Positions 2,699 to 17,447 of a stretch of DNA of 64,000 nucleotides are shown here, in pieces. The stretch spans positions 1 to 64,000 of the forward strand of contig NZ_FQYT01000006.1 in the NCBI RefSeq assembly GCF_900141895.1. The letters run 5' to 3'. The notes beneath the pieces were generated by a model. It saw only the letters and a program-made list of their open reading frames with translations, searched no databases and was not told the DNA's origin. Each line of letters opens with the position of its first letter. Position 1 is the stretch's first letter. Both the position numbers and the translations under genes were made by a program. The stretch comes from Parasporobacterium paucivorans DSM 15970 (lineage in GTDB: Bacteria > Bacillota > Clostridia > Lachnospirales > Lachnospiraceae).

Positions 2699-2741
2699 TT
2701 GACAATTAGTTGTCAAAGTTGTATCATTTTGGTATACCAAA
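2699..2741 (+). promoter_or_regulatory. Promoter with two dyads before the Mo-enzyme operon
   Basis: A -35 TTGACA (2699-2704) and a -10 TATCAT (2722-2727) are separated by 17 bases, leaving a leader of about 70 bases. TTGACAA-N4-TTGTCAA (2699-2716) covers the -35 and the start of the spacer. A second, perfect 14-bp palindrome, TTTGGTATACCAAA (2728-2741), covers the expected start of transcription. This layout is typical of repressor operators. No regulator gene is adjacent, so the binding protein is unknown. Confidence 0.6.
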
Positions 2742-2803: not shown

Positions 2804-5800
2804 ATGGGTAGGAAAGCTGATAAAGGTCTTGAGATTTTTGACAAAACAGTTTTAGGAGGCACACTGTTTGCACTCGACAAAACATTGAATGCGTTGGCGC
2901 TGGCATTCCCGGAATTCAAAATGGAACTCAGAAAGAAGAATATCACTGTTCAGATGAAGCTCAGGGATGAAAGTTTTGGGCGGCTTCTGAAATTCAAGGA
3001 TGGTTTTGTGACCAGCAATAATGGTATTTTCAAAGATGCCGACGTTGAGATGGTTTTTGAAGATGAGAATGTGGCAAGAAAAGTCGTGGCGCTGATTCGC
3101 GACCAGGCAGAATTCGTTAATGCGGCTAAATCCGGATCACTGGCGCTGAACGGCCCGGATGAAGAAGCTATGTGGTTTTCGGCTCTCCTGCTGAAAGTTT
3201 TTGCTTTCGACGTATTATATGCCAAGAACTACGGAACTAAAATGCCTAACGGTGAGAAGCGTTATGTGACTGGAACCAATGGCGGACCATTGTTTGTATA
3301 TGTAAAGGACGACAAGATCGTGCGGGTGACTCCAATCGATTTTGACGAAGAAGATGCAGAGCCCTGGACCATTACTGCCAGAGGGAAAAAGTTCTCGCCT
3401 CCGAAAAGAACTACAGCTGCTCCCTACGCCATGGGATGGAAGTCCATGGTTTATTCACCGGACCGGGTCCTTTACCCGATGAAGCGTGTGGATTTTGATC
3501 CAGACGGAGAAAGGAATTATGAAAACCGGGGTGTCTCCGGATATGAGAGAATATCATGGGACGAAGCTCTGGACATCGTATCCAGGGAAATCATCCGAGT
3601 ACGGCAGACCTATGGTGCAGGAGCAGTATTTCATACTTCCGGATCCCATCATACCTGGGGTAACTGCGGATACTATCTGAGTGCGGCAAAGCGGTTCTTC
3701 AACTGCCTTGGCGCTACTAATGCAGCCCTGAATCCGGACAGCTGGGAAGGTTTTGCCTGGGGTGCCACCCATCATTATGGCGGAAGCGCACGTAACGGAG
3801 GATGTGAGCCATATTCAACAGTGGAAGACTGCATGCAGAATTCTGAAATGATCGTATTCTGGTCATCCGATCCGGAATCCACTGCCGGCGTGTACGGAGC
3901 CCAGGAAGGTACCATCCGACGAGAATGGATTAAAAAGCTTGGAATTCCTGTAGTGCATATCGATCCTTACTTTAACAGCACAGCAGCTTTTATGGGCGGA
4001 AGATGGATAGCTCCTTATCCAGGAACGGATGCTGCCCTTGCGCTGGCCATTGCAAACGTTTGGATGAATCAGGGAACCTATGATAAGGAATACGTAGCTG
4101 ACCGTACCAAAGGATTTGAAAAATGGGAAGAGTATGTCATGGGCAAAACTGATGGAGTTCCTAAAACACCAGAGTGGCAGGAAGAGCATACCGGAGTTGC
4201 AGCAAGAACCGTAAGGGCGCTGGCAGAAGAGTGGGGAAGAAAGAAAACCTATCTGGCCTGTGGCGGCATTACTTCATTCGGCTGTGCCGGCAGGACAGCC
4301 TTCGGAACAGAATGGGCGCGTGCCATGGTGTGCCTTATAGCAATGCAGGGTCTTGGAAAACCAGGGGTAAACTTTGGCGGACTGCAGTATGGAACGCCGC
4401 TGGATACCCGATTCTTTTTCCCTGGCTATGCAGACGGAGGATTTTCCGGCGACTATATGGGAACCGGTGCAGGTGTAAACATATATAACCGTATGCCTCA
4501 GTCCCCTTCCGTAAATTCTGAAACGCAGCTGATTCCACGACTTCGCATACCTGAGGCCATTATGGATGGAAAGACGGAGGCCAACCATATGGGCGTTTAT
4601 TCTGTACAAGCGCAGTTTGCCAAAATCAAATATCCGGCGCCGGGACACAGCACCGTCAAGATGTATTATAAATATGGAGGTTCCCATATCGGAACACAGC
4701 CTGATTCCAAAAGATTTGCCAGAATGTACCGCTGTGACAGCCTGGAGTTCGTGGTGAACCAGTCTATCTGGATGGAAGGCGAAGCCAAATTTGCCGATAT
4801 TATCCTTCCGGCCTGCACCAACTTCGAGAGATGGGATATTGCAGAATCGGCCAATTCCGGCGGTTACATCGACAAAACCTACCTGCAGAACAACCACAGG
4901 GTAGTTTTTGTGCAGCATAAATGTATTGAACCATTAGGCGAGTCAAAATCCGATTTTGACATATTCCAGGCGGTTGCCAATAAACTGGGACTGTGGCAGG
5001 TGTTCTCGGAAGGAAATTCTGAGTATGACTGGGCAAAAAGATACTTTGAGTGTACGGATCTTCCGAAAAAAATATCCTGGCATAAACTTTTGAAAAAAGG
5101 ATATTACGTGGTTCCACCATTGCCTGAAAACCGCAGGGATCCCGTAGCATTTAACTGGTTTGCCAAGGGAATCAAAAAGGATACGCCGGAGCTTTCCCCA
5201 CTTCCATCAGAGCATTATGGAAGGTACAATGAAGGACTTCAGACGCCATCCGGAAAATTTGAATTTGAAGCACAGACTTTGAAAATGTTTGATCCAAATG
5301 ATGAAGAACGTCTTCCAATCTGCACCTACATTCCTTCCTGGGAGGGAAGGGACGCAAAGGAATTGTATAGCAGATTTCCTTTGCAGCTCATATCTCCGCA
5401 TGTGAAGTACAGCTTCCATACCATGGGAGACGGAAAAGACTCCAATATCAATGACATTGAAGAGCATCGTAAACTGGTGGATGGATTCCGGTACTGGATT
5501 TTCAGAATGAACCCAGAGGATGCCCAGAAACGCGGATTAAAGGAAAATGATGTTATTGAAGTATACAACGACCGGGGAAGCGTACTGTGCGCTCTGGAGG
5601 TTACCCAGAGGCTGCCAAAAGGAATCGTACATTCCTTTGAAGCCTGTGCGGATTACAAACCACTTGGAGAACCCGGATATGCGGTTGAAAAAAATGGCTG
5701 TATCAATAACCTGACACCTAGCCGTTTCATTACAAAGAACGCACACGGACTGGCAGTCAATTCCTGTCTTGTGGAAGTACGGAAATGGGAAGGAGAAAAC

Positions 5801-5806
5801 AAATAA
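2804..5806 (+). CDS. SCP2-domain fused molybdopterin enzyme, pyrogallol-phloroglucinol transhydroxylase (AthL)-like
   Basis: This 1000-residue cytosolic protein has no Tat or Sec signal. Residues 1 to about 138 form an SCP2-like (sterol carrier/lipid-binding) domain. From about residue 145 it follows the DMSO-reductase-superfamily large subunit AthL of Pelobacter transhydroxylase. It lacks an N-terminal Cys cluster motif, as AthL does. NPDSWEG puts S313 where AthL has its molybdenum-ligand Ser175, with D312 matching Asp174 and H282 in SHHTWGN matching His144. The register is constant at +138, and Y290 matches Tyr152, but AthL Arg153 is Y291 here. AthL moves a hydroxyl group between polyhydroxybenzenes. 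The SCP2 fusion and neighbouring quinone-lipid genes suggest a lipidic aromatic substrate; this is inferred. The alignment was made from memory of the family. Confidence 0.85.
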   Translation: MGRKADKGLEIFDKTVLGGTLFALDKTLNALALAFPEFKMELRKKNITVQMKLRDESFGRLLKFKDGFVTSNNGIFKDADVEMVFEDENVARKVVALIRDQAEFVNAAKSGSLALNGPDEEAMWFSALLLKVFAFDVLYAKNYGTKMPNGEKRYVTGTNGGPLFVYVKDDKIVRVTPIDFDEEDAEPWTITARGKKFSPPKRTTAAPYAMGWKSMVYSPDRVLYPMKRVDFDPDGERNYENRGVSGYERISWDEALDIVSREIIRVRQTYGAGAVFHTSGSHHTWGNCGYYLSAAKRFFNCLGATNAALNPDSWEGFAWGATHHYGGSARNGGCEPYSTVEDCMQNSEMIVFWSSDPESTAGVYGAQEGTIRREWIKKLGIPVVHIDPYFNSTAAFMGGRWIAPYPGTDAALALAIANVWMNQGTYDKEYVADRTKGFEKWEEYVMGKTDGVPKTPEWQEEHTGVAARTVRALAEEWGRKKTYLACGGITSFGCAGRTAFGTEWARAMVCLIAMQGLGKPGVNFGGLQYGTPLDTRFFFPGYADGGFSGDYMGTGAGVNIYNRMPQSPSVNSETQLIPRLRIPEAIMDGKTEANHMGVYSVQAQFAKIKYPAPGHSTVKMYYKYGGSHIGTQPDSKRFARMYRCDSLEFVVNQSIWMEGEAKFADIILPACTNFERWDIAESANSGGYIDKTYLQNNHRVVFVQHKCIEPLGESKSDFDIFQAVANKLGLWQVFSEGNSEYDWAKRYFECTDLPKKISWHKLLKKGYYVVPPLPENRRDPVAFNWFAKGIKKDTPELSPLPSEHYGRYNEGLQTPSGKFEFEAQTLKMFDPNDEERLPICTYIPSWEGRDAKELYSRFPLQLISPHVKYSFHTMGDGKDSNINDIEEHRKLVDGFRYWIFRMNPEDAQKRGLKENDVIEVYNDRGSVLCALEVTQRLPKGIVHSFEACADYKPLGEPGYAVEKNGCINNLTPSRFITKNAHGLAVNSCLVEVRKWEGENK

Positions 5807-6651
5807 TGGAAAAGTGGCATATCGTAGTAGATATTGAAAAATGTGTTGGCTGTTTTAACTGTATGCTTGCCTGTAAGGATGAACATGTAGGCAACAAATG
5901 GCTTCCCTACACGGATGAGCAGCAGAAACATGAAAATAAATGGATCAATCCCGAAAAGCATGAGAGGGGATCCGTTCCCTTTACGGAAATTTGTTTTGTT
6001 CCCCATATGTGTCAGCACTGCGACGAGGCACCCTGCGAGAAGAAATTCCCGGATGTGGTGACGAAAAGACCGGACGGTATCGTGCTTCTGGATGTGAAAA
6101 AAGCCAAAGGAAAAAAAGAGCTGGCAGACGCATGTCCTTACGGAGCCATTGTCTGGAACGAGGAATTAAAGACGGCCCAGAAATGCACCCTTTGCGCCCA
6201 TCTGCTGGATGATGGATGGACAGAGCCCCGGTGCGTACAGTCTTGTCCGCTCAGGGCCCTAAGCATTGTACACTGCGAGGATACGGAGTTCGAAAAGCTG
6301 GCGGACAAACAGAATCTCAAACCAATCACGAATGGGAGCAATCAGCCCCGGGTGCTGTATAAAAACCTGTATAAATTCAACAAGGTATTCGTTGCAGGCG
6401 CCCTGGCATTCCTGGACGGGGACATCGAGAAAGCGGCCGTGGATGCCCGGATTTCCCTGAGCCTCAACGGGAAGAAGCTGCTGGAACAAAAAGCGGATTT
6501 CTTCGGGGAATTCAAATTCGACAAGCTGCCGAAAAACAGCGGAACGTTTACAGTGGAATGCCTTATGGAAGGGTATAATCCAATCCGCCAGGAAGTAACC
6601 GTGGGAAATGAATGCGTAAAGATGGAACTGATGACTTTCGAAGGAAGATAA
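5806..6651 (+). CDS. AthS-like iron-sulfur subunit with C-terminal transthyretin/CarboxypepD-type domain
   Basis: The ATG shares its A with the TAA of the Mo-enzyme gene (TAATG), so the two are translationally coupled and most likely form a heterodimer. The 281 residues begin with a ferredoxin-like domain carrying CVGCFNCMLAC, CQHCDEAPC, a CPYG Cys and KCTLCAHLLDD with a later CVQSCP, enough for three [4Fe-4S] clusters. From about residue 195 there is an Ig-like beta domain including FFGEFKFDKLP. This order is that of transhydroxylase AthS. The subunit carries electrons to or from the Mo site. No membrane subunit is encoded nearby, so the enzyme looks soluble. Confidence 0.85.
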   Translation: MEKWHIVVDIEKCVGCFNCMLACKDEHVGNKWLPYTDEQQKHENKWINPEKHERGSVPFTEICFVPHMCQHCDEAPCEKKFPDVVTKRPDGIVLLDVKKAKGKKELADACPYGAIVWNEELKTAQKCTLCAHLLDDGWTEPRCVQSCPLRALSIVHCEDTEFEKLADKQNLKPITNGSNQPRVLYKNLYKFNKVFVAGALAFLDGDIEKAAVDARISLSLNGKKLLEQKADFFGEFKFDKLPKNSGTFTVECLMEGYNPIRQEVTVGNECVKMELMTFEGR

Positions 6652-6652
6652 T

Positions 6653-7078
6653 ATGATGAACAAAAGGAATTTGCAGGAAAAGCTGGAAGCTCTGCTGTCA
6701 GACGGCTACGGGATGATGGCGGAGATGGGCATGGAGCCTTTCGGAGAAGAGGAGAGAAGCCTGACGGCAGAGATATTTTGTACGTATCCGGATATAGAAA
6801 AGGGCCTGAACCTGGCGGCTGCCGGGCAGTGCTTCTACTGCTTCTGCAGCCTGCATAACCGGATCGAGGAGAATGAAACGGCGGCGACCCTGCTGGGAGA
6901 TTACTTCTTCAGCCGCTTTTCCCATTTCCTGATTCCCCTGGACAGCCGCCAGCTGATTGAAGAGTTTTCCCTTTATCTGCAGGAAGAGTCCAAGGACGGG
7001 GTAGACGGCAACCGGATCTTCGATACAGAAAAATATCGGATATTCCTGAACCACATTTCCTCCGAGGTGGAAGTATGA
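6653..7078 (+). CDS. Probable small (HepS-like) subunit of polyprenyl diphosphate synthase
   Basis: This 141-residue soluble helical protein overlaps the next gene, a polyprenyl synthase, by ATGA. The segment TAATLLGDYFFSRFSHFL recalls the GDYxxSxxY motif of the B. subtilis HepS regulatory subunit, which pairs with HepT to make the C35 chain. HepS is much longer (about 250 residues), so this would be a reduced version. The alternative is a TorD-type chaperone for the Mo enzyme encoded just upstream, since helical proteins of similar size act that way. The motif and coupling to the synthase favour HepS. Confidence 0.5.
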   Translation: MMNKRNLQEKLEALLSDGYGMMAEMGMEPFGEEERSLTAEIFCTYPDIEKGLNLAAAGQCFYCFCSLHNRIEENETAATLLGDYFFSRFSHFLIPLDSRQLIEEFSLYLQEESKDGVDGNRIFDTEKYRIFLNHISSEVEV

Positions 7079-8094
7079 CAGAGACAATTGCCGGATTGGA
7101 AGTCCGAAAGAAAATAAAAGAGAACGTAGCCCTGCAGGAACTGACCGGGGAGCTGAACCGGCTGGAAGCCCTTCTTGTGAAGGCCTGTGGCAGCGATAAT
7201 GCCATGTTGACAGAGAACCTGAAACGGATCATCCTGTCGGGAGGCAAGCGCCTGCGGCCTTCCCTTGCGTACCTTTGCCACGGCCTGGCCGGATACGCCG
7301 GTGGAGACCGGAAGAAAAGGGAAATCCTTCCCCTGATGTGCATGTTGGAGCTGATGCATACCGCCTCCCTGATCCATGACGACGTGATCGACCATTCGGA
7401 TGAGAGAAGAGGGGTCATCACCATACACAAGGTCATCGGAAGGCACTCCGCAATCAAGAGCGGGGATTATCTCCTTGCAAAAGCCATGGAACATATACCG
7501 GCTTATCATGGTACCGGCATCAGTGAGGTGCTGGCGGATACCGCTGCCCAGATGTGCCTGGGAGAAGTCCAGCAGATGCGGACGGCTTTCAGCAGAGAAA
7601 AACAGACCTATGAGAATTATATTCTTCAGATAAAGAGAAAGACAGCCTATCTTCTGGCGGCAAGCTGCTACACGGGAGCTGTCGCCGGCGGATTTACACT
7701 GGAAGAAGCCAAATCCCTTCGCTCCTATGGGGAGAATATAGGGATAGCCTTCCAGATCAAGGACGATATCCTGGATTTCAAAGGCAGCCGGAAGCTGGGA
7801 AAACCTTTGGGGCAGGATCTGCGCAAGGGAATATTCACCCTTCCCCTCATGAAGGCATTGGAAGCGGAACAGGATGCAGAAATGCTGAAGCTCGCCTGTG
7901 CGGAAGAAAAATCGGAGACGGATATAGAAAGGCTGATACGTTTTGTGGTCGGTACAGGCAGTATCGGTTATACCGAAAACAAGGTCAGGGAATACAGCCA
8001 GAAGGCAATATGGGACCTGGAAACATTTCCGGAGAGTCCCCAAAAAGCGGCCCTTACCGACCTGGCAGAGGGTCTGGCAGAAAGAAAACTCTGA
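7075..8094 (+). CDS. hepT: Long-chain polyprenyl diphosphate synthase
   Basis: The 339-residue protein is a trans-prenyltransferase that condenses isopentenyl diphosphate onto an allylic primer. Both aspartate-rich motifs are present: DDVID (D102-D106) followed by HSDERRG, and DDILD (D230-D234) with KPLGQDLRKG after it. The residue five places before the first Asp is small (A97 in HTASLIHDD), as in enzymes that make long chains (about C30-C50) rather than farnesyl diphosphate. The expected product is the side chain for the MenA-type enzyme encoded 6.6 kb downstream in the same operon. The exact chain length cannot be read. Confidence 0.9.
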   Translation: MTETIAGLEVRKKIKENVALQELTGELNRLEALLVKACGSDNAMLTENLKRIILSGGKRLRPSLAYLCHGLAGYAGGDRKKREILPLMCMLELMHTASLIHDDVIDHSDERRGVITIHKVIGRHSAIKSGDYLLAKAMEHIPAYHGTGISEVLADTAAQMCLGEVQQMRTAFSREKQTYENYILQIKRKTAYLLAASCYTGAVAGGFTLEEAKSLRSYGENIGIAFQIKDDILDFKGSRKLGKPLGQDLRKGIFTLPLMKALEAEQDAEMLKLACAEEKSETDIERLIRFVVGTGSIGYTENKVREYSQKAIWDLETFPESPQKAALTDLAEGLAERKL

Positions 8095-8133: not shown

Positions 8134-8694
8134 ATGGATGATTGCTTGAACGAAAAAAGCGGAAAAAATCTTATAAAGCAGATCACCCGGGAGACCGGCG
8201 TGGTTCTGCACGACTGCTACCAGTGCGGCAAATGCAGTGCAGGCTGCCCCATGGCCCATGCCATGGACCTGATGCCTCGGGAGGTGGTCCATTATATGCA
8301 GCTGGGCATGATGGATGAGGTGTTGAAATCGAAGACCATATGGCTGTGCGCCACCTGCCACACCTGTGTGGACCGGTGCCCCAACGATATCGATATACCT
8401 TCCCTTATGGAGAAATCCAGGCAGGAAGCCAAGAGGCGGGGTCTGGTTGCCGTGAAGGAAGTGGACCGGTTCAATGATATCTTCATGGAAAACGTGAAGC
8501 TGTTCGGAAAGTCCCAGGAGGTCATCCTGGAAGGGCTGTATAACGTCTCCACTGGGCATTTCATTCAGGATATGGAGAATGTGCCCCATATGCTGAGCCA
8601 TAAGCTGATCGGGATCAAGCCGGTCATGATAAGGGACAGAGGTGCTGTGCAGAAGATCATTCGGAAAACAATGAAGGATAAAAAGAAGAAATGA
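8134..8694 (+). CDS. hdrC: Heterodisulfide reductase subunit C-like iron-sulfur protein
   Basis: This 186-residue soluble protein has two four-Cys motifs, CYQCGKCSAGCP and CATCHTCVDRCPNDIDI, each with the fourth Cys followed by Pro. These bind two [4Fe-4S] clusters that wire HdrA to HdrB. There is no membrane helix, so this is the cytosolic HdrABC form and not HdrDE. The start follows AAGGAGG. The C-terminus is strongly basic (KDKKKK). The 39-base gap from the synthase gene is the largest inside the operon. Confidence 0.9.
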   Translation: MDDCLNEKSGKNLIKQITRETGVVLHDCYQCGKCSAGCPMAHAMDLMPREVVHYMQLGMMDEVLKSKTIWLCATCHTCVDRCPNDIDIPSLMEKSRQEAKRRGLVAVKEVDRFNDIFMENVKLFGKSQEVILEGLYNVSTGHFIQDMENVPHMLSHKLIGIKPVMIRDRGAVQKIIRKTMKDKKKK

Positions 8695-8705: not shown

Positions 8706-9599
8706 ATGCTCAGATATGCATACTATCCGGGATGTTCTATGGACTCGACCGGAGCTACCTATAAAAAATCCATCGAATTCGTGGCGGAAAAGATCGGACT
8801 GGATCTGCGGGAGATCAAGGACTGGAACTGCTGCGGCGCCACCGCAGCCCACACGAAGGATGAAATGATGGCCCTGGCCCTGCCGGCGAGGAATCTGGCC
8901 CTGGCAGAAAGCGAGGATCTTGGCCTGGATATCGCCATTCCCTGTGCGGCCTGCTATTCCCGGATGAAATATTCCCTGCATGCCGTACGCACCGATGAGG
9001 AGAAGAAAGAGCAGATCCAGGAAATCATTGAGATGCCGTATGAAGGCAAAAATGATGTCCTGTCTTTTCTGGATATCTTCAGTACCGAGGAGGCCATGGA
9101 GGCCTGCCGGTCCAAGATGGTCCGCACCTTAAGCGGCCTCAAGGTCGCGTGCTATTACGGCTGCCTTCTTTCCCGTCCCCATGAGGTCACCGGAGGGGAA
9201 GATACAGAGAACCCCATGGATATGGACCGAATCGTCGCCCTGACGGGAGCGGAGCCGGTGGACTGGTCCTTCAAGACAGAGTGCTGCGGAGCCAGCCATC
9301 AGGTGGATGTGCCGAAGGAAGCCAGACCCTTATTGGACAGGATACTCAGAAATGCCCAGGCAAACGGGGCCCAGGCCATCGTGACGGCCTGTCCGTTGTG
9401 CAATATGAACCTGGACATGCGTCAGGCGGAAATCAACGAAAAAATGGAAAAAAAATATAATCTGCCGGTATATCAGTTCACGGAGCTGCTGGCTGTGGCC
9501 ATGGGAGCCGGTGCAAAGGAAATAGGCCTCCACAAGCATTTCTTTCCAGCTTTCGAGCTGATGAAAAAATACGCAAAGAGAGCAGGTGAGAACGGATGA
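8706..9599 (+). CDS. hdrB: Heterodisulfide reductase subunit B-like protein (two CCG domains)
   Basis: The 297 residues hold two complete Cys-rich CCG domains: YPGCSMDS...NCCGATAAH...IPCAACY and YYGCLLSRP...ECCGASH...ACPLC. These bind the two noncubane [4Fe-4S] clusters that cleave a disulfide such as CoM-S-S-CoB in methanogens. Every cluster Cys is kept, so the subunit should be active. The natural high-potential acceptor in a bacterium without CoM/CoB is unknown; DsrC is a proposed partner in sulfate reducers, and no dsrC is present in this window. It lies 11 bases after hdrC and overlaps hdrA by ATGA. Confidence 0.9.
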   Translation: MLRYAYYPGCSMDSTGATYKKSIEFVAEKIGLDLREIKDWNCCGATAAHTKDEMMALALPARNLALAESEDLGLDIAIPCAACYSRMKYSLHAVRTDEEKKEQIQEIIEMPYEGKNDVLSFLDIFSTEEAMEACRSKMVRTLSGLKVACYYGCLLSRPHEVTGGEDTENPMDMDRIVALTGAEPVDWSFKTECCGASHQVDVPKEARPLLDRILRNAQANGAQAIVTACPLCNMNLDMRQAEINEKMEKKYNLPVYQFTELLAVAMGAGAKEIGLHKHFFPAFELMKKYAKRAGENG

Positions 9600-11578
9600 G
9601 CCGAACAGGAGTAATCATCTGCCACTGCGGCACAAACATAGCCTCCATGGTGGATGTGGAAAAAGTAGCGGAAGAAATAGGAAAAATACCGGGCGTGGTC
9701 TACTCCGTGACGAACAAGTATACCTGCTCCGAACCGGGTCAGCAGATGATCAAGGATGCCATCGAGGAACACAGCCTGGACCGCATCGTGATTGGAGCCT
9801 GCACCCCCCGGATGCATGAGACAACCTTTCGCAAGATGCTCAAAGGGACGAAAATCAATCCCTACATGCTGGAGATTGCCAATCTGCGGGAGCAGTGCGC
9901 CTGGGTCCATACCGATAAAGAAAAAGCCACCGAAAAGGCCATCTCCCTTGTACGGATGTCCGTTGCCAAGGTAGGCAGCAATAAGCCTCTGTTCACCTCC
10001 TTCATCCCAATCCATAAGAAGGCCCTGGTCATCGGCGGCGGAATTGCCGGCATCCAGGCGGCTCTGGATATTGCGGATGCAGGACATGAAGTGACGCTTG
10101 TAGAAAGAGAGCCATCCATCGGAGGCAAGATGGTCATGCTGGACAAGACCTTTCCGACCCTGGACTGTTCTGCCTGCATCAGCACCCCGAAAATGGTGGA
10201 CGTCAGCGCACACCCCAACATTACGCTGAAAACCTCCTGTGAGGTGGAAGCGGTAACCGGATACGTGGGGAATTTCGAGGTGACCATCCGACAGAAGGCC
10301 CGTTATGTGAACCATGACATCTGTACCGGCTGCGGATTATGCGAGACAAAATGCCCTTCCAAAATATCCGATGAATTCAACCAGGGAATCGGAGAACGGA
10401 AAGCCATCTATAAGCTGTTTCCGCAGGCGGTGCCGGCCAAACCGGTCATCGACGCACAGAACTGCCGGAAACTGAATGGCTCAGCCAAGTGCGGGGTCTG
10501 CCAGATCGTCTGCCCCCTGCAGTGCATCGATTTTGAGGACAAGGACCAGCTAATCACGGAAACCTATGGAGCCATCGTGGTAGCTACCGGATATGAACTG
10601 ATTGATTGGACGAAGCTGTACGGAGAATACGGAAGCGGCCGCTATGCGGACGTTATCAGCGGTCTGCAGTTCGAACGCCTGGTCAACGCCTCCGGTCCTA
10701 CGGAAGGCCATATTCTGAGGCCTTCTGACCAGAAGGAACCCAAGGATGTAGTCATCGTCAAATGCGTGGGTTCCCGGGATGAGAAAAAAGGGAAAAGCTA
10801 TTGTTCCCGTGCCTGCTGTATGTACGGAGCCAAGCACGCCCATCAGATCCTGGAGAAGATCCCCGGATCGAATGTATATATATTCTATATGGATGTGAGA
10901 ACCCCCGGAAAAGGATACGAGGAATTCTACAACCGGACCCGGGAGGACGGAGCAACCTATATTAGAGGTCGTGTGGCCAAGATCTACAAAGAGGGGGACA
11001 AGCTCATCTGCACCGGAGAAGACACTCTGATTGGAAAACCGGTAACCGTAAAAGCGGACATGGTCATCCTGGAAACGGCCATGGTGCCTGCCAGGGGAGT
11101 GGAGGAAATCGTCAGCAAACTGGGCATCTCCATGGATGGGGACCACTGGGTACAGGAAGCCCATCCGAAGCTTCGGCCGGTGGAGACCCAGACAGCCGGA
11201 ATATTCCTGGCAGGCACCTGCCAGGGCCCCAAAGATATCCCGGATACCGTAGCCCAGGCCTCTGCGGCAGCCGTAAAGGTCTGCGGGGTGTTTAGCAAGG
11301 AACAGATGGAAACCTCCCCGATGATCAGCCGGGTCAACGAAGAAAAATGCTGCGGATGCGAGTTCTGCGTAAAATGCTGCCCTTACAGCGCGATTGCCAT
11401 GAAGGAAATCGACGGAAGGGAAGGCAACCGAAAAATCAAACGAATGGTAGCCACTGTCAATTCCGGACTCTGCCAGGGCTGCGGAGCCTGCACGGCAGCC
11501 TGCCGCACCGGCGCCATCGATCTTCTGGGATATACCAATGACCAGATACTCAAGGAGGTGGATGCACTATGTCTGTAG
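9596..11578 (+). CDS. hdrA: Heterodisulfide reductase subunit A-like flavin bifurcating core
   Basis: This 660-residue protein has an N-terminal Cys-containing domain (CHCGTN, then YTCSEPGQ). The FAD-binding motif VIGGGIAGIQAALDIA starts at V145, followed by DCSACISTPKM. An inserted ferredoxin pair carries CTGCGLCETKCP and CGVCQIVCP. A C-terminal ferredoxin pair carries CCGCEFCVKCCP and CQGCGACTAACR. The FAD of HdrA is where electrons from NAD(P)H or H2 are split between ferredoxin and the HdrB disulfide. In this operon it is flanked by hdrCB and flxDCBA, which fits the soluble FlxABCD-HdrABC complex known from Desulfovibrio. Confidence 0.92.
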   Translation: MSRTGVIICHCGTNIASMVDVEKVAEEIGKIPGVVYSVTNKYTCSEPGQQMIKDAIEEHSLDRIVIGACTPRMHETTFRKMLKGTKINPYMLEIANLREQCAWVHTDKEKATEKAISLVRMSVAKVGSNKPLFTSFIPIHKKALVIGGGIAGIQAALDIADAGHEVTLVEREPSIGGKMVMLDKTFPTLDCSACISTPKMVDVSAHPNITLKTSCEVEAVTGYVGNFEVTIRQKARYVNHDICTGCGLCETKCPSKISDEFNQGIGERKAIYKLFPQAVPAKPVIDAQNCRKLNGSAKCGVCQIVCPLQCIDFEDKDQLITETYGAIVVATGYELIDWTKLYGEYGSGRYADVISGLQFERLVNASGPTEGHILRPSDQKEPKDVVIVKCVGSRDEKKGKSYCSRACCMYGAKHAHQILEKIPGSNVYIFYMDVRTPGKGYEEFYNRTREDGATYIRGRVAKIYKEGDKLICTGEDTLIGKPVTVKADMVILETAMVPARGVEEIVSKLGISMDGDHWVQEAHPKLRPVETQTAGIFLAGTCQGPKDIPDTVAQASAAAVKVCGVFSKEQMETSPMISRVNEEKCCGCEFCVKCCPYSAIAMKEIDGREGNRKIKRMVATVNSGLCQGCGACTAACRTGAIDLLGYTNDQILKEVDALCL

Positions 11579-12024
11579 AAAAGAACTGGGAACCGAAAAT
11601 CATTGCCTTTACCTGCAATTGGTGCACCTATACCGGAGCGGATCTGGCCGGCCTGAACCGGATGAAATATCCGGAAAACGTACACCTGGTACGTGTGCCA
11701 TGCTCCAGCCGCGTCAATCCGCAGTTCATCCTGCGGGCCTTCCAGAAGGGCTGTGACGGCGTAATGGTGTGCGGATGCCATCCGGGAGACTGCCACTATG
11801 CCACGGGCAACTATTTTACCAGAAGAAGGTTCATGCTCATGAAAAGATTATTGGAATATAACGGAATCGACCCACAGCGTTTCCAGGCCCGGTGGATTTC
11901 CGGCTCTGAAGCGGCCAAATTCAGGGATACCATGACACAGGTTACGGCACAGATCCGGGAGCTTGGACCAAACAGCAAGTTCCAGGAGAAGTGGTATCAG
12001 GAAGGAGGCCCGGAGAATGAATGA
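11569..12024 (+). CDS. flxD: MvhD/FlxD-type hydrogenase iron-sulfur subunit
   Basis: The 151 residues carry the conserved Cys pattern FTCNWCTYTGAD, RVPCSSRVN and CGCHPGDCHY, which binds the [2Fe-2S] cluster of MvhD. MvhD passes electrons from the input module to HdrA. The gene overlaps hdrA by 10 bases and the following iron-sulfur gene by 8, so the three are translationally coupled. No NiFe hydrogenase large or small subunit is present, so the input module here is the downstream FlxCBA set and not Mvh hydrogenase. Confidence 0.9.
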   Translation: MSVEKNWEPKIIAFTCNWCTYTGADLAGLNRMKYPENVHLVRVPCSSRVNPQFILRAFQKGCDGVMVCGCHPGDCHYATGNYFTRRRFMLMKRLLEYNGIDPQRFQARWISGSEAAKFRDTMTQVTAQIRELGPNSKFQEKWYQEGGPENE

Positions 12025-12880
12025 CACATTGGAGATAAAAAGGGAAGCACAGCTCAGGGAAACGGCCCGCAGGCTTCTCGAAGACGGAACGGTAGGCTAT
12101 ATCATCGGCTGGGGAACGACCCGCTTTGAAGACAAAACGGCCCCCCTGTTCGCAGCAAAACCAGAGGAGGCGGACAGACTGGTATGGAATGAATACTGCA
12201 TCAACAGCCTGGCCAAATATTCCCTGGATGACAAGTACCCGGAGAAGAAGATCGGCATCTGCGTGCGGGGATGCGACTCCCGGGCCGTGAACCGCCTGGT
12301 CAACGACAAACAGATCGAAAGGGAGAACCTGTTCCTGATCGGGATGCCCTGTTCCGGCAAGGAAAACAGTGTGTGTGAGGGTTGTTCCCATAAGAACCCG
12401 GTCGTCTATGACATCCTCATTGGGGAACCGGTAGAAGAAAACACAGAGGAAAAGGCCAGCGCAGAAAGATTCCGGGAAATCGAGGAGTTTGAAAAGATGT
12501 CCCCGGATGAAAGATATGAATTCTGGGCGAAGCAGTATGACAAATGCATCCGCTGCTACGCATGCCGCAACATCTGCCCGGCCTGCAGCTGCAAGGAATG
12601 CTACGCAGACCAGTACATGGTAGGATGGCAGGGCAAGCAGAACAACCGGGCCGAAAGCCAGGTGTACGGTCTGACCAGAGCCTATCACGTGGGGGACCGC
12701 TGCATCGAATGCGGCGAGTGCGAACGGGTATGCCCCATGGGGCTGCCCATCATGCGCCAGACCAAGAAGATGCTCAAGGATATCAATGACCTGTTTGGAA
12801 ACTATGAGTGCGGCGTGGAGAGCGAACGGGCGCCGGTTCTGGGTGAATATGACCTGACAGACAGGGACGAATTTATGTAG
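12017..12880 (+). CDS. flxC: Iron-sulfur protein with FrhB-like N-terminal half (FlxC position)
   Basis: The chosen ATG at 12017 follows GGAGGCCCGGAGA; an upstream in-frame start lies inside flxD. The 287 residues have an N-terminal domain with CVRGCDSRAV and Cys-rich PCSGKENSVCEGCSHK. The C-terminal ferredoxin pair is CIRCYACRNICP (with CSCKEC) and CIECGECERVCPMG. Desulfovibrio FlxC is a smaller ferredoxin, so this is an enlarged form of that position. Its N-terminal part resembles the matching region of the next gene product (GIRPCDVKSI), suggesting an old duplication. Its likely role is electron relay between FlxB and FlxD. Confidence 0.75.
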   Translation: MNDTLEIKREAQLRETARRLLEDGTVGYIIGWGTTRFEDKTAPLFAAKPEEADRLVWNEYCINSLAKYSLDDKYPEKKIGICVRGCDSRAVNRLVNDKQIERENLFLIGMPCSGKENSVCEGCSHKNPVVYDILIGEPVEENTEEKASAERFREIEEFEKMSPDERYEFWAKQYDKCIRCYACRNICPACSCKECYADQYMVGWQGKQNNRAESQVYGLTRAYHVGDRCIECGECERVCPMGLPIMRQTKKMLKDINDLFGNYECGVESERAPVLGEYDLTDRDEFM

Positions 12881-12890
12881 GAGGTACAGG

Positions 12891-13889
12891 ATGCAGTTAG
12901 ATAAATCGGATTTACAGGAGGCATTGCGGATCCTGTCCGCGGAGGCAGGCGTCTTCGTACCCTCCGTGGTGGAGGGCGTATCCAGGTTCGCACTGTGGGA
13001 TGGGGAAAGCAGCATCGATCTTTCCCGGGTCAATACGGAGCTTCCGCCTAAGGATATCCTGTTTCCCCAGACGGAGAAGATGTACTCCTATAAGATGGGA
13101 AAAAATATAGAGATCAAAGAAATAATAGACAACCCGAAGCAGGTGGTCTTCGGAATCCGCCCATGCGATGTGAAGAGCATCGGCTGCATGGACAAGGTAT
13201 TCCTGGAGAAGACCTATGTGGACAGCTTCTATGCGGGAAAACGGGAGAACCTGACGGTGATATCCGTGGGATGTACCCAGACTGACAGGACCTGCTTCTG
13301 CGATTCCATGGGTCTGAGCCCTTCGGACGCACCGGGAGCGGATGTAATGATGAATGATACCGGCGATACCTTCGTGGTGGAAGCCTATACAGACAAGGGC
13401 AAACAGGTGATGGAAGCCTGGAAGCCCCTGCTGAAGAAGGGCGGGAAAAAGCCCGCTGCCCCAGAATGTACGCTTAAGGTAAAGATGAGTCCGGAGATTT
13501 CCGTGAAGCTGTCGAAGATGTTCGAACATCCCATTTGGGAGGAGGTCTCCCGGCCCTGCATCGGGTGCGCCACCTGTACCTATGTCTGCCCTACCTGCTA
13601 CTGCTTTGACATGAATTCGGACAATCACAGCAGTGAAGGCACCAAGTTCCGGTGCTGGGATTCCTGCATGTTTTCGGACTATTCCAGGATGGCCGGAGGC
13701 CACAATCCACGTCCGGGCAAAAAGGAGCGGGTGCGCAACCGCTATATGCACAAGCTGTCCTATTTCAATGAAAGATATGAAACTTCCCTGTGTGCCGGAT
13801 GCGGAAGGTGTGCGGATAAATGCCCGGCCCACATGGATATAACCGCCTTTATCGACAGGGTGGCAGAGGAGGAAATGGAAAATGCATAG
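12891..13889 (+). CDS. flxB: FlxB/AsrA-type 4Fe-4S dicluster protein
   Basis: This 332-residue protein belongs to the family of sulfhydrogenase beta subunit, anaerobic sulfite reductase A and FlxB. The N-terminal domain contains VVFGIRPCDVKSIGC and VGCTQTDRTCFCDSMG. Two ferredoxin motifs follow, CIGCATCTYVCPTCYCFDM and CAGCGRCADKCPAHMDI. It relays electrons from the flavin subunit encoded next, which overlaps it by 8 bases. No sulfite reductase catalytic subunit (AsrC) follows, which argues against an asr operon. Confidence 0.85.
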   Translation: MQLDKSDLQEALRILSAEAGVFVPSVVEGVSRFALWDGESSIDLSRVNTELPPKDILFPQTEKMYSYKMGKNIEIKEIIDNPKQVVFGIRPCDVKSIGCMDKVFLEKTYVDSFYAGKRENLTVISVGCTQTDRTCFCDSMGLSPSDAPGADVMMNDTGDTFVVEAYTDKGKQVMEAWKPLLKKGGKKPAAPECTLKVKMSPEISVKLSKMFEHPIWEEVSRPCIGCATCTYVCPTCYCFDMNSDNHSSEGTKFRCWDSCMFSDYSRMAGGHNPRPGKKERVRNRYMHKLSYFNERYETSLCAGCGRCADKCPAHMDITAFIDRVAEEEMENA

Positions 13890-14730
13890 TATAAACCATG
13901 AATGCACCTGCAGCAGCAACCCGCTGATTCCCCATGTCTGCCAGGTGACCGCCATCAAACAGGAAACCCCGGATGTGCAGACATACCGGATCCAGACCCT
14001 GGATGGCCAGAAGCCCTTTTCTCCGATGCCCGGCCAGCTGGCCATGATTTCCCTGCCGGATGTGGGGGAAGCCATGTTCTCTATAACGGCCCAGGGGGAA
14101 GACTATATAGAATCCGCCATCAAGAATGCAGGCCAGCTGACACAGGCCTTTCATGAAATGACTCCCGGCCAGCAGATTGGGGTGCGGGGTCCTTACGGAA
14201 ACCACTTCCCGGTGGATGACCTCAAAGGAAAGGACCTGCTCTTTATCGGAGGCGGCATCGGGCTGGCCCCGGTCCGCTCCCTGATCCGCTACTGTTTTGC
14301 GAACCGGGAGGATTTCGGCCATATCGATATCCTCTACGGCGCCCGCTCTCCGGAGGACCTGGTATTCAAGGAAGACCTGTCCCTAAACTGGCCGAAAGAA
14401 AAGGATACCACGCTCCATGTGACCGTCGACCGGGGGAATGAGACTTGGGAAGGCAACGTCGGTTTCGTGCCGGCCTACCTGGAGGAGCTGGCCTTTTCGC
14501 CGGTCGGCCGGAAAGTGATCTTGTGCGGTCCTCCCATCATGATCAAGTTCGCCTCTCAGTCGCTGATGAAAATGGGATTTGCCAAAGAAGACGTCATCAC
14601 AACCCTGGAGATGCGCATGAAATGCGGTATCGGAAAGTGCGGACGCTGCAACATCGGAAGCAAATATGTGTGCCTGGACGGCCCGGTATTCACTCTGGCG
14701 GAGCTGGACGAGCTGCCGGACGAGAATTAG
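13882..14730 (+). CDS. flxA: FlxA/AsrB-type FAD/NAD(P)-binding subunit
   Basis: The 282 residues form a ferredoxin-NADP reductase-like fold. There is a FAD-binding barrel (GVRGPYGNHFP), a nucleotide-binding domain (FIGGGIGLAPVRSLI, later VILCGPPIM) and a C-terminal [2Fe-2S] Cys set (MKCGIGKCGRCNIGSKYVC). It oxidises NAD(P)H and feeds electrons via FlxB, FlxC and FlxD to HdrA. The start ATG is inside the end of flxB. In the Desulfovibrio complex the order is flxABCD-hdrABC; here it is exactly inverted, hdrCBA-flxDCBA. Confidence 0.88.
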   Translation: MHSINHECTCSSNPLIPHVCQVTAIKQETPDVQTYRIQTLDGQKPFSPMPGQLAMISLPDVGEAMFSITAQGEDYIESAIKNAGQLTQAFHEMTPGQQIGVRGPYGNHFPVDDLKGKDLLFIGGGIGLAPVRSLIRYCFANREDFGHIDILYGARSPEDLVFKEDLSLNWPKEKDTTLHVTVDRGNETWEGNVGFVPAYLEELAFSPVGRKVILCGPPIMIKFASQSLMKMGFAKEDVITTLEMRMKCGIGKCGRCNIGSKYVCLDGPVFTLAELDELPDEN

Positions 14731-14743
14731 AAAGAGGCAGGAT

Positions 14744-15670
14744 ATGAAGGAATACAGCAGACCAACCATCAAGTCCGTCATGGAACTGGCAGCACCCCAT
14801 ACCTGGCCGGCAAGCGTTGTACCGGTCGTTCTGGGAACGGTGCTGGCCTACGCACTGGAAGGAAGATTTGATGCCGGAATTTTCTATTCCACCCTTCTTG
14901 TAGCCGTTTTCCTGCAGTGTGCGGTCAATACCATCAATGATTATGCAGACTTCGTCAAGGGGACGGATACGGTGGAAAACTCCATCGATCCCACGGATGC
15001 CTCCCTGGTATACAACAACATGAATCCGAAGACGGCACTGAAGATTGGAATCGGATTCATCGTCCTGGCTGCCCTGTCTGGGATCTACACGCTATGGATG
15101 GCTGGATGGACACCCCTGCTGTTCGGGGCCGTGGGCGTGGCGGTCCTTGCCCTGTATTCCCTGGGGAAACTGCCTATATCCCACCTGCCCCTGGGGGAAG
15201 CGGTTTCAGGATTCACCATGGGTATTCTGATCACCGTGGCCTGCCATTACGTGCAGGCATCCCGGCTGGATATGCGTGTGGTTCTGTTTTCCCTGCCTGC
15301 ATTCCTGACGATCGCGCTGATTATGATGGTGAACAATACCTCGGATATCGAGAAGGACGAGACATCCGGAAGGCGGACGCTTCCGGTCATCCTGGGGAGG
15401 TCATCTGCCCAGAAACTGATCCGGGGAGCCATCCTTGCAGCTATTGTGCTTATTCTTATTGCGGCATATGTCTGGTTCCGGTCAGGAATGTTCCTTGTTC
15501 CCCTGATGCTTTTCATGACCGCGCGAGCCGCCTTTCCTTTGTTTAAAAATCCGGTGGATCCGGCTGCGAGGATGCGGTCAATGGCAGCCGTTGTTCGGAC
15601 GCACACGATATCAAATGCATTTTTCATAATCATGATTGCGGTCCATGCGATGTTGGGAGGACAGATGTGA
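14744..15670 (+). CDS. menA: MenA-type polyprenyltransferase (UbiA superfamily)
   Basis: This 308-residue membrane protein has about eight hydrophobic segments and both Asp-rich motifs of the superfamily. The first is N62-D69 (NTINDYAD, then FVKGTD) and the second NNTSDIEKD (N197-D205), followed by RTLPVILG. The form of both motifs is that of MenA, which joins a polyprenyl chain to 1,4-dihydroxy-2-naphthoate, not UbiA of ubiquinone synthesis. The start at 14744 follows AGAGGCAGG, 13 bases after flxA. No DHNA-forming men gene is in the window, so the aromatic acceptor could be scavenged DHNA or a different ring. It overlaps the methyltransferase gene. Confidence 0.85.
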   Translation: MKEYSRPTIKSVMELAAPHTWPASVVPVVLGTVLAYALEGRFDAGIFYSTLLVAVFLQCAVNTINDYADFVKGTDTVENSIDPTDASLVYNNMNPKTALKIGIGFIVLAALSGIYTLWMAGWTPLLFGAVGVAVLALYSLGKLPISHLPLGEAVSGFTMGILITVACHYVQASRLDMRVVLFSLPAFLTIALIMMVNNTSDIEKDETSGRRTLPVILGRSSAQKLIRGAILAAIVLILIAAYVWFRSGMFLVPLMLFMTARAAFPLFKNPVDPAARMRSMAAVVRTHTISNAFFIIMIAVHAMLGGQM

Positions 15671-16371
15671 AAAAAGAAACAAAAGTCCACAAAATTTTTG
15701 AAAACATCAGTTCCAGATATGATATAATGAACGATATAATCAGTTTTGGAATGCACCGTCTTTGGAAACTGCGTCTTATTTCTGAGGTGACAAGGCAAAA
15801 TCCCGAAAAGATTCTGGATGTCTGCTGCGGAACGGGAGACATTTCCCTGCTGGCGGCCCGGATGAATCCGAATGCCAGCATTTATGGTCTTGATTTTTCG
15901 GAAAATATGCTGAAAATCGCAAACCGGCGCAAGAAAGAAGCAGACCGGAAGAATACCCATAGTGTTAGGTTTCAAAAAGGGGATGCAATGAATCTTCCTT
16001 TCGAGGACGGGTTTTTTGATGCAGCTGTTATTTCTTTCGGGCTCAGAAATGTGTCTGACTATGGCCGGGTAATCCGGGAAATGACCCGGGTGGTAAGGCC
16101 GGGCGGCAGGGTATACTGCCTGGATTCCTCGTATCCTGAATCCTCCCGCATCAGACCTCTGTTCGGACTGTATTTCAAATCCATCATGCCGTTTCTGGGA
16201 TGGATAATTGCAGGAAGCAGAAATGAGTATAAGTGGCTTAATGAATCTACGGAAAGATTTGTTTCAAAGGGCCGGCTCTGTAAAATATTTTCACAATCCG
16301 GTCTTAGTGATACAGGCTGCTATTCCCATCTGTTTGGGGTGGCTGCTTGCCACCGGGGAACAAAAACTTAA
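15667..16371 (+). CDS. menG: MenG/UbiE-type quinone C-methyltransferase
   Basis: The 234 residues start at a GTG that overlaps the menA stop by four bases, after GGGAGGACA. The N-terminal ENISSRYDIMNDIISFGMHR is the family signature. ILDVCCGTGDISLL is the SAM-binding loop, followed by YGLDFSENML. The end (GVAACHRGTK) is that of MenG. These enzymes methylate the prenylated ring, for example demethylmenaquinol to menaquinol. As the last enzyme of the operon it completes a prenylate-then-methylate pair with MenA. Confidence 0.88.
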   Translation: MKKETKVHKIFENISSRYDIMNDIISFGMHRLWKLRLISEVTRQNPEKILDVCCGTGDISLLAARMNPNASIYGLDFSENMLKIANRRKKEADRKNTHSVRFQKGDAMNLPFEDGFFDAAVISFGLRNVSDYGRVIREMTRVVRPGGRVYCLDSSYPESSRIRPLFGLYFKSIMPFLGWIIAGSRNEYKWLNESTERFVSKGRLCKIFSQSGLSDTGCYSHLFGVAACHRGTKT

Positions 16372-16634: not shown

Positions 16635-17447
16635 ATGAGTGGAATGAACGAACATTTATATGATCCAATCCCAGATGTCGATGTATACCTGAAGCGTATC
16701 AATCTTATCGGCCCTCTGGAACCGGATAAAGATAATCTGGACAGGGTTATCTATGCACATCAGTGCGCCATACCCTTTGAAAATCTGGATGTGTGCCTTT
16801 ATAAAAAGGAAATCAGCCTGGGAATCAACGATTTATATAATAAAATCATATTAAAAAAAAGGGGCGGATACTGTTTTGAGATGAACAATCTGTTTCTTGC
16901 GTTCCTCAAAGCCCTCGGATATGATGCCCACGCCTGTCTGGCAAAGGTATGGAAGGAAGGGGCAGCTAACGTACCGGCTCTGCACAGAGGCAGTATAGTT
17001 AACCTGGACGGAGACCTGTATTACTGTGATGTGGGTTTTGGCGGACCTGTTCCGGGCGGAGCAGTAAGGCTGGAAGAGGATGTCCTGCAGAATATTCACG
17101 GGGAAAAGTTTCGCTTTATCAAAAAGGGGAACTGGTGGGAACTGTCTCGCATAACCAATTTGGGAGATGTGGAAACTTTGATTTCCGTAAACCCGAATCC
17201 AGCTGAACTGGAGGATTTCGTGGCGTTAAGTCATTACTGTTCCTGCCATACCCAGCGGGATTTCAATGTATTCACAGATAATCTTATGGCCAACATCCGG
17301 GTGCCAAATGGACATTATTCTATCAATAACGACGTTCTGATCAAAAAAGTCAACGGAATCCGTGACGAGGTCCTCATTAAATCCAAACAAGAATTAGTGC
17401 AGATTCTCAATGATTATTTTCACATTGAAATGGAAGACCTGGATTGA
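16635..17447 (+). CDS. nat: Arylamine N-acetyltransferase
   Basis: The 270-residue protein carries the NAT catalytic triad with the right spacing: C80 in RGGYCFEMNN, H117 in ALHRGSIV and D132 in YYCDVGFGGP. NATs move an acetyl group from acetyl-CoA to aromatic amines, hydrazines or hydroxylamines; in gut bacteria they act on drugs such as 5-aminosalicylate. The ATG at 16635 follows GAGAGGAA. It lies 16 bases downstream of the small membrane protein gene, and a terminator follows it, so it may be read through from the upstream operon. Confidence 0.9.
   Translation: MSGMNEHLYDPIPDVDVYLKRINLIGPLEPDKDNLDRVIYAHQCAIPFENLDVCLYKKEISLGINDLYNKIILKKRGGYCFEMNNLFLAFLKALGYDAHACLAKVWKEGAANVPALHRGSIVNLDGDLYYCDVGFGGPVPGGAVRLEEDVLQNIHGEKFRFIKKGNWWELSRITNLGDVETLISVNPNPAELEDFVALSHYCSCHTQRDFNVFTDNLMANIRVPNGHYSINNDVLIKKVNGIRDEVLIKSKQELVQILNDYFHIEMEDLD

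Follow-up and report, generated by a model that had tools for sequence, protein, structure and literature searches.

The gene at positions 2804–5806 of a 64,000-nucleotide stretch of the Parasporobacterium paucivorans DSM 15970 genome (contig NZ_FQYT01000006.1, positions 1 to 64,000; this whole stretch is called the window) encodes a protein in which a domain with the predicted fold of sterol carrier protein 2 (SCP2) precedes a molybdenum (Mo) subunit of the type found in pyrogallol-phloroglucinol transhydroxylase (AthL/PgtL), and it heads an operon that combines genes for making a prenyl-quinone tail with genes for an Hdr-Flox electron-transfer complex. The overall explanation favored here, tentatively and at somewhat less than an even chance, is that a polyphenol hydroxylase exchanges electrons, by way of its SCP2 domain and a prenyl-quinone, with a complex that bifurcates between NADH and ferredoxin. 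Its support comes from the retained AthL residues, the SCP2 fold, the monophyly of the fused proteins and of those from the quinone operon, the presence of this operon in five genomes, and the phenol-catabolism contexts of relatives. A limited search of the open literature found no report of an SCP2-molybdoenzyme fusion.

The fused protein

The open reading frame is uninterrupted, lies on the forward strand, begins with ATG and encodes 1000 amino acids. Residues 153–998 match residues 6–870 of AthL (PDB 4v4c, chain A) over the full length (phmmer, E 1.5e-295), residues 161–215 match the Pfam family AhtL-like_1st (PF21423; 5.5e-33, 112.8 bits against a cut-off of 27), and Molybdopterin (PF00384) and Molydop_binding (PF01568) are also matched in this part. 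By this homology, residues 153–1000 are assigned as an AthL/PgtL-type bis-molybdopterin guanine dinucleotide (bis-MGD) Mo subunit. In the alignment to 4v4c the offset is 138 at H282/H144, Y290/Y152, Y291/R153, D312/D174, S313/S175 and Y542/Y404 (window protein/AthL) and 128 at Y688/Y560, which confirms what a first-pass annotation made from the sequence had claimed, namely a constant offset at H282, Y290, D312 and S313 and a Tyr in place of Arg153. AthL residues H144, D174, S175, Y404 and Y560, which we take to act in the active site, are all matched (H282, D312, S313, Y542 and Y688), and the Ser ligand and the His, Asp, Trp and Tyr active-site residues are retained. Across the 20 fused proteins compared, H282, Y290, D312, S313, W314 and Y542 are invariant, and Y688 is present in 19. 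The Arg153 that marks the AthL family is replaced in all 20 (by Trp in 10, by Tyr in 6, including all five from the quinone operon, by Phe in 3 and by His in 1), and is retained in three of nine unfused proteins. A PADLOC scan of the fused protein gave no match.

The retained active-site residues would also suit a redox-neutral, AthL-like transhydroxylase in which SCP2 is a structural add-on and the Hdr-Flox and quinone genes are co-localized for co-regulation only. This reading is judged improbable, given the replacement of Arg153 throughout the fused proteins, the retention of the operon order in five genomes of more than one family, and the two unfused AthL-like enzymes that the genome already has. 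AthL/PgtL and the window protein share the full-length Mo alignment, the active-site residues and a neighboring Fe-S partner subunit; they differ in the additional N-terminal SCP2 domain, in the Tyr for Arg153, and in the quinone-tail and Hdr-Flox genes of the window operon. DbhL, a 3,5-dihydroxybenzoate hydroxylase, is a further close known system. Resorcinol hydroxylase (RhL) has been described as Ser-coordinated, as grouping with PgtL and as feeding anaerobic respiration (PMC10100899), and the window enzyme is likened to it by that description, not by sequence. Gut catechol dehydroxylases (Cdh) are placed near acetylene hydratase (PMC7028382), while the best solved relative of the window protein in the PDB sequence search is AthL, with acetylene hydratase far weaker (9.5e-13).

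No usable Pfam match was obtained for the N-terminal part of the window protein, which fails the gathering score of the SCP2 family (PF02036, 21.3), and NCBIfam models gave no N-terminal match in four relatives. Of the six proteins in the first alignment, three match PF02036 below its cut-off (best E 0.0019), as do five of ten further relatives (best 19.0 bits), and a search of PDB sequences with the profile of the N-terminal alignment returned three weak matches, none of them SCP2. An AlphaFold2 (AF2) model of residues 1–151, built with six homologues as input, has a predicted local distance difference test score (pLDDT) of 81.7. The first eight Foldseek rows for this model are all UbiJ-SCP2 (6h6p_A, E 1.2e-6). 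In VIA-align the top-ranking structures are animal sterol carrier proteins (insect SCP2 1pz4, Z 11.1, root-mean-square deviation (rmsd) 2.8 over 108 aligned residues), with UbiJ further down (6h6p_D, Z 9.5, rmsd 3.9 over 115 aligned residues). At the level of this predicted model the SCP2 fold is regarded as established. The SCP2-like domain claimed in the first-pass annotation is thus borne out by fold, with UbiJ as the top Foldseek match, and not by the Pfam score of the window protein.

UbiJ is reported to bind ubiquinone intermediates, and one UbiT-UbiU fusion has been reported (PMC6747719). The likeness of the window domain to UbiJ and UbiT is seen at the level of fold, as given by Foldseek and VIA-align. 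UbiJ and UbiT have the SCP2 fold in common with it but are accessory proteins serving other enzymes, whereas the domain described here is part of the same polypeptide as a Mo catalytic subunit and occurs in anaerobes and in some proteobacteria.

The quinone operon and the fused clade

All genes between 2804 and 16371 share one strand, no gap between them exceeding 39 bases, and genes for a polyprenyl synthase, a MenA-like prenyltransferase (MenA') and a MenG-like methyltransferase follow the fused gene, as the first-pass annotation had stated, with the reservation that MenA' scores below the curated cut-offs. In five genomes from more than one family, as checked by tblastn, the fused gene heads a long operon of conserved order (type Q): Fe-S subunit, small and large polyprenyl synthase subunits, HdrC, HdrB, HdrA, FlpD, two Flox-type Fe-S proteins, a ferredoxin-NADP reductase (FNR)-type protein and MenA'. 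The FNR-type protein and MenA' are present in the window and in genomes G707, G826 and G827, and only the window and G707 have MenG adjoining MenA'; the G826 contig stops 132 bases past MenA', and the gene that follows in G827 is on the opposite strand. For the fifth genome, G828, the stretch read ends within the second Fe-S gene, and the 2,688 further contig bases leave room for the FNR-type and MenA' genes; the remainder of this contig (locus L038) was not found among 20 contig starts of G828. Locus L094 was covered by the tblastn comparison alone. In L037, an unfused AthL/AthS pair lies upstream of and divergent from the fused operon, with a PucR-type regulator gene between them. By eye, a gene at the end of the window (62578–64000) resembles the PucR-type regulators of L037 and L038.

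HdrA, HdrB, HdrC, FlpD and NAD(P)-binding Flox-type subunits, the set by which a Flox-HdrABC complex is defined, are all encoded together in the window operon, with the NCBIfam Hdr models all scoring below their cut-offs. The Flox-HdrABC systems of sulfate reducers likewise have HdrABC, FlpD/MvhD and Flox-type Fe-S and flavin adenine dinucleotide (FAD) proteins in one operon; here, the complex is tied instead to a Mo enzyme and prenyl-quinone genes.

The fusion is sparsely distributed. At E 1e-200, a search of 294 other genomes in the order with the whole fused protein gave no match; within the phylum, 11 of 398 genomes passed E 1e-100, four of which (including that of the window) have SCP2-fused copies. 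The 150 genomes of the family yielded the N-terminal domain in two, one of them being the window's own. A scan of species-representative contigs with the N-terminal alignment yielded 19 loci in Bacillota, betaproteobacterial, deltaproteobacterial and actinobacterial records, four of them type Q (L035–L038), six with phloroglucinol-type neighbors and nine with neither context. Among the 15 best of 181 matching plasmid records, eight carry a homologue at 50–54% identity, seven of these matching from residue 8–17 onward. Moorella sulfitireducens has three fused copies in the scan, and a glycyl-radical enzyme gene (pyruvate formate-lyase-like) lies near one of them (L025:7558–9951).

In a midpoint-rooted tree of the Mo part (29 rows), the 20 fused proteins form one group (100/100), inside which the five type-Q proteins form another (100/100), with G545 and a Gracilibacter copy as its sister (100/99). 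Long-branch warnings apply to own_C14 and L013; L012 and L018 (in-frame stops), L020, L021, the partial L047 and L052, and eight plasmid homologues were left out, and L036, L040 and L043 duplicate G707, G598b and G598a. Over the whole protein, identity to relatives outside the quinone operon is mostly 58–62%, and 54% to L049.

Phenol contexts, the quinone ring and a proposed electron route

The six phloroglucinol-type loci (L040–L043, L045 and L048), and likewise G327, adjoin at least three of the following: a short-chain dehydrogenase/reductase (SDR), a cyclase, a 3-hydroxyacyl-CoA-dehydrogenase-like protein (3HCDH), a beta-keto-acid cleavage enzyme (BKACE), a thiolase and a small cupin. The reference genes were named by eye, and Pfam matches of their homologues in the window's genome agree for four families. 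The G327 cyclase is 88% identical to that of Moorella, and genes of this type correspond to the cluster reported from Clostridium scatologenes (PMC10470551). A gene of the uroporphyrinogen decarboxylase (URO-D) family lies near four loci of Sporomusa and near one of type Q (L038), as called by Pfam for L038 and L044 and by similar sequence starts for L045, L047 and L050. On Burkholderia, Ensifer and Salipiger plasmids, the fused gene, together with that of its Fe-S partner, is found near genes for vicinal oxygen chelate (VOC), fumarylacetoacetase-like, acyl-CoA-synthetase or outer-membrane transport proteins; all three annotated plasmid loci inspected have aromatic-catabolism-like surroundings (a fourth carries no annotation).

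The window's genome itself encodes two unfused AthL-like proteins at 53–54% identity and one at 38%, and its contig 19 (L139) carries a run of cupin, SDR, 3HCDH, cyclase, BKACE, thiolase and CoA-transferase genes. Similar runs occur in G707 (L140) and G827 (L142), and partial sets in the stretches read of G828 (L137) and G826 (L136); L135 (G827) and L136 (G826) have an additional AthL-like gene of unfused length. The gene content of the window's genome suggests a polyphenol-using bacterium, with the SDR as a putative phloroglucinol reductase. A second ring-cleavage-like locus, with cyclase, 3HCDH and unfused-length AthL-like genes and one that by eye is old-yellow-enzyme-like, is present in two Family XIII genomes (L135:4554–12403 and L136:2111–12000). 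A UbiX-like flavoprotein gene (L030:3241–3825; Pfam Flavoprotein) lies a few kilobases from an unfused AthL paralogue of the window's genome and might fit a gallate-type decarboxylation.

The first-pass annotation had proposed that the Mo enzyme acts on a prenylated aromatic ring. This finds no support, because the fused clade is wider than the quinone operon and has relatives amid phenol-catabolism genes. A known soluble, non-lipid substrate for the clade, which that annotation had named as evidence against itself, is indicated by gene context only, in a comparison that took in no biochemically characterized fused member. Since the fused clade is partly tied by context to phenol catabolism, the substrate is read as a soluble polyphenol; since the tail genes recur beside a different quinone-linked enzyme (see below), the quinone is read as an electron carrier; and since SCP2 holds quinone intermediates in UbiJ, the domain is read, by analogy, as a putative quinone dock of a soluble Mo enzyme with no recognized membrane subunit.

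In the favored explanation, a cytosolic AthL/RhL-type Mo enzyme would add a hydroxyl to a soluble plant polyphenol or, in reverse, remove one. Hydroxylation seems somewhat the likelier direction, because the proteobacterial relatives adjoin VOC-family and fumarylacetoacetase-type genes, where dehydroxylation makes little sense. The SCP2 domain would dock a prenyl-quinone made by the tail kit of the operon (two-subunit polyprenyl-diphosphate synthase, MenA' and MenG). Two electrons may then pass from Mo to the AthS-like Fe-S subunit, the bound quinone or both, and on to HdrBC, and HdrA-FlpD-Flox would bring these electrons of middle potential into balance with ferredoxin and NAD(H) through flavin-based bifurcation or confurcation. 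EtfABCX is reported to bifurcate the electrons of NADH to ferredoxin and menaquinone, with potentials of about -450, -320 and -74 mV (PMC10734219).

The domain could instead bind the hydrophobic tail of the phenolic substrate, such as an alkyl-resorcinol or acyl-phloroglucinol, the quinone being merely a downstream acceptor. Proteobacterial relatives that adjoin OmpW or other outer-membrane transport and acyl-CoA synthetase genes are in keeping with such a tail; the Moorella, Gracilibacter and G327 relatives adjoin phloroglucinol-pathway genes, where the substrate is polar, and no tail-degrading genes were recognized in the quinone operon, which makes this rather unlikely.

The ring of the quinone bears on a further alternative. 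Among the 14 genomes bearing the fusion, MenD (TIGR00173) scores over its cut-off in three (G327, G545 and G834) and MqnC (TIGR03699) in five (Moorella, three Sporomusa and the actinobacterium), which gives a ring-pathway marker in eight; MenA' is present in the operon of four of the six others. Neither marker was found above cut-off in the five type-Q genomes, where the other genes of the two pathways were not sought (completeness 97.5% for the window's genome and 92% for G707), so that the origin of the ring is left unexplained there. Among 299 genomes of the family, five have MenA' relatives at E 1e-20, two of these genomes being type Q. In the three others (G750, G963 and G911), the polyprenyl synthase, MenA' and MenG genes are grouped together (L088:11405–18500, L089:10023–16752 and L090:1–2586), neither MenD nor MqnC is above cut-off, and no SCP2 or fused Mo gene is present in the stretches read. 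In G750 and G963 this kit lies beside a quinone L-lactate dehydrogenase gene, LdhH (over cut-off), and a FixC-like gene, as scanned for G963 and seen by eye for G750, where a FixX-like match is below cut-off.

MenA' itself is distinctive. The Arg of NNxRD is missing in all seven MenA'; of the 33 other rows, 32 retain it (30 of 31 once duplicates are removed). In the first, RPxT-like motif, the Arg is missing in all six MenA' that cover this motif and kept in 29 of 29 others with letters there; the 30 MenA-like comparison loci are the best TIGR00751 matches and are thus biased to canonical enzymes, and L115 and L121 duplicate MK_G327 and MK_G545. UBIAD1 (PDB 8djk) retains NNTRD. Porphyromonas pasteri is reported to scavenge 1,4-dihydroxy-2-naphthoate (DHNA), with the genes from DHNA to menaquinone present and the ring pathway absent (PMC9704088). 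Bacteria with MenA' either scavenge DHNA in this way or use another ring; what distinguishes them from scavengers of the P. pasteri type is that MenA' is without two Arg that the other MenA-like enzymes compared retain, and that it is encoded within redox operons.

These data bear on the alternative nearest to the original proposal, in which the Mo enzyme would hydroxylate or dehydroxylate a prenylated ring held by SCP2, as a step toward a quinone whose ring comes from neither the MenD nor the futalosine pathway. The lack of MenD and MqnC above cut-off in all five operon genomes, the two Arg missing from MenA', UbiJ as the top Foldseek match and the linkage of the genes in the operon speak for it. 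It is nevertheless unlikely, as fused enzymes also occur with no adjacent tail-kit genes, several in phenol-catabolism loci; the tail kit occurs in three genomes whose stretches read contain neither an SCP2 gene nor a fused Mo gene; G828 has the operon with no close MenA'; and the window protein is still mostly 58–62% identical to relatives from outside the quinone operon (54% to L049). A bolder form, to which slightly less weight is given, supposes an undescribed prenyl-quinone whose ring, derived from dietary polyphenols and made through neither o-succinylbenzoate nor futalosine, would be prenylated by MenA' and have its hydroxyls adjusted on the lipid by the SCP2-Mo enzyme, coupling polyphenol use to Hdr-Flox bifurcation. 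For the new quinone-type step suggested at first, the tail kit of the operon and the failure to find MenD or MqnC above cut-off in the five genomes speak in favor; the action of the Mo enzyme on the ring finds no support.

Several findings also weigh against the favored explanation, that of a polyphenol hydroxylase coupled through a quinone to Hdr-Flox. No membrane-anchor subunit was recognized in the operon, and sterol carriers rank above UbiJ in VIA-align. Nearly half of the scanned loci, the nine mentioned above, show neither context, and the relatives in phloroglucinol contexts have no adjacent quinone genes in the stretches read. A search of G828 with MenA' returned a 24% match alone, on another contig, an apparent exception; G833 bears the fusion yet has neither MenD nor MqnC above cut-off; and a ring pathway is present in four of seven genomes with unfused AthL-type enzymes (G405, G479, G392 and G636), three of them those of 37–38% relatives. 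A rule equating SCP2 fusion with a quinone-bearing genome was rejected, as fused-bearing genomes could not be separated from those with unfused AthL.

If the favored explanation is true, plant-polyphenol breakdown by gut and termite-gut anaerobes would be linked with a lipid quinone and with electron bifurcation where no quinone-ring route was found, and the SCP2 domain would gain a role within a catalytic enzyme. The MenA-like subfamily is flagged in genomes with neither MenD nor MqnC, and which ring it prenylates becomes directly testable.

Operon components and neighboring genes

The features of the operon are listed in Table 1.

Table 1. Positions of the fused gene, its two parts' coding regions, the downstream operon genes and a promoter-like site in the window
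Feature	Position	Strand	Basis
Promoter-like site TTGACA-17-TATCAT, 11/12	2699..2727	+	Consensus scan; in front of the fused gene
SCP2-like domain, residues ~1–143 of the fused protein	2804..3232	+	AF2 model, Foldseek, VIA-align; sub-threshold PF02036 in relatives alone
AthL/PgtL-type bis-MGD Mo subunit (by homology), residues 153–1000	3260..5803	+	phmmer 4v4c 1.5e-295; PF21423, PF00384, PF01568
AthS-like Fe-S subunit	5785..6651 (start perhaps ATG 5806)	+	PF13247 1.3e-21
Probable HepS-like small subunit of heterodimeric polyprenyl-diphosphate synthase	6653..7078	+	AF2 model, VIA-align, L037 fusion
Polyprenyl-diphosphate synthase, large subunit	7075..8094	+	PF00348 9.7e-63
HdrC-like Fe-S protein	8134..8694	+	TIGR03290 7.2e-24, below cut-off
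HdrB-like protein, two CCG motifs	8706..9599	+	PF02754; PDB HdrB 3.2e-43
HdrA-like flavoprotein	9596..11578	+	NF040770 HdrA2 798 bits, below cut-off 1100
FlpD/MvhD-like (FloxD-type) subunit	11569..12024	+	PF02662 2.4e-53
Fe-S electron-transfer protein, Flox-type by position	12017..12880	+	4Fe-4S matches; in-frame ATG 12017
AsrA/HydB-like Fe-S protein, Flox-type	12891..13889	+	PF17179; TIGR02910 1.6e-52, below cut-off
AsrB/HydG-like FAD/NAD-binding protein, Flox-type	13882..14730	+	PF00175, PF10418; TIGR02911 2.5e-66, below cut-off
MenA-like UbiA-family prenyltransferase (MenA')	14744..15670	+	PF01040
MenG/UbiE-type methyltransferase	15667..16371	+	NF001243 255.1 vs cut-off 235

The AthS-like subunit has 4Fe-4S domains, with 14 Cys in residues 1–164, and a weak C-terminal match to a carboxypeptidase-regulatory-like domain (PF13715, 0.025). 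The 141-residue product of 6653–7078 has no Pfam match and no Foldseek match at E <= 0.001; its AF2 model (pLDDT 87.9) gives VIA-align rows that are mostly isoprenoid synthases, including 9kp1_A, 3aqb_A and 5h9d_C, with Z inflated by the helical fold. In L037 a homologue is fused to the large subunit in a single open reading frame, by a weak alignment of 19% identity, and on this fusion and the VIA-align result an assignment as a TorD chaperone was dropped for that of a HepS-like subunit. The best NCBIfam model of the large subunit is TIGR02748 HepT (232 bits, below its cut-off of 456.55), and the HdrB-like protein scores 186.7 bits with NF042965 SdhE and 185.7 bits with TIGR03288 HdrB, both below cut-off. 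MenA' misses the curated MenA cut-offs (NF004749, 184.2 against 277 bits; TIGR00751, 83.1 against 102.15 bits), and the methyltransferase also passes that of TIGR01934 (245.3 against 158.35 bits).

Genes upstream of the fused gene, for a UbiB-like ABC1 kinase (688–2283), a phasin-like protein and DgkA, were rejected as parts of the system because none of them was found by tblastn in the stretches that were read near the fused gene in L028/L036, L037/L080, L038 and L077, and because the promoter-like site also separates them from it. This site is one of four in the region against 2.0 expected, and is by itself no evidence; an inverted repeat noted by eye, TTGACAAttagTTGTCAA at 2699–2716 of the window, overlaps it and is a possible operator. 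After MenG, a gene at 16635–17447 looks, by eye, like one for an arylamine N-acetyltransferase.

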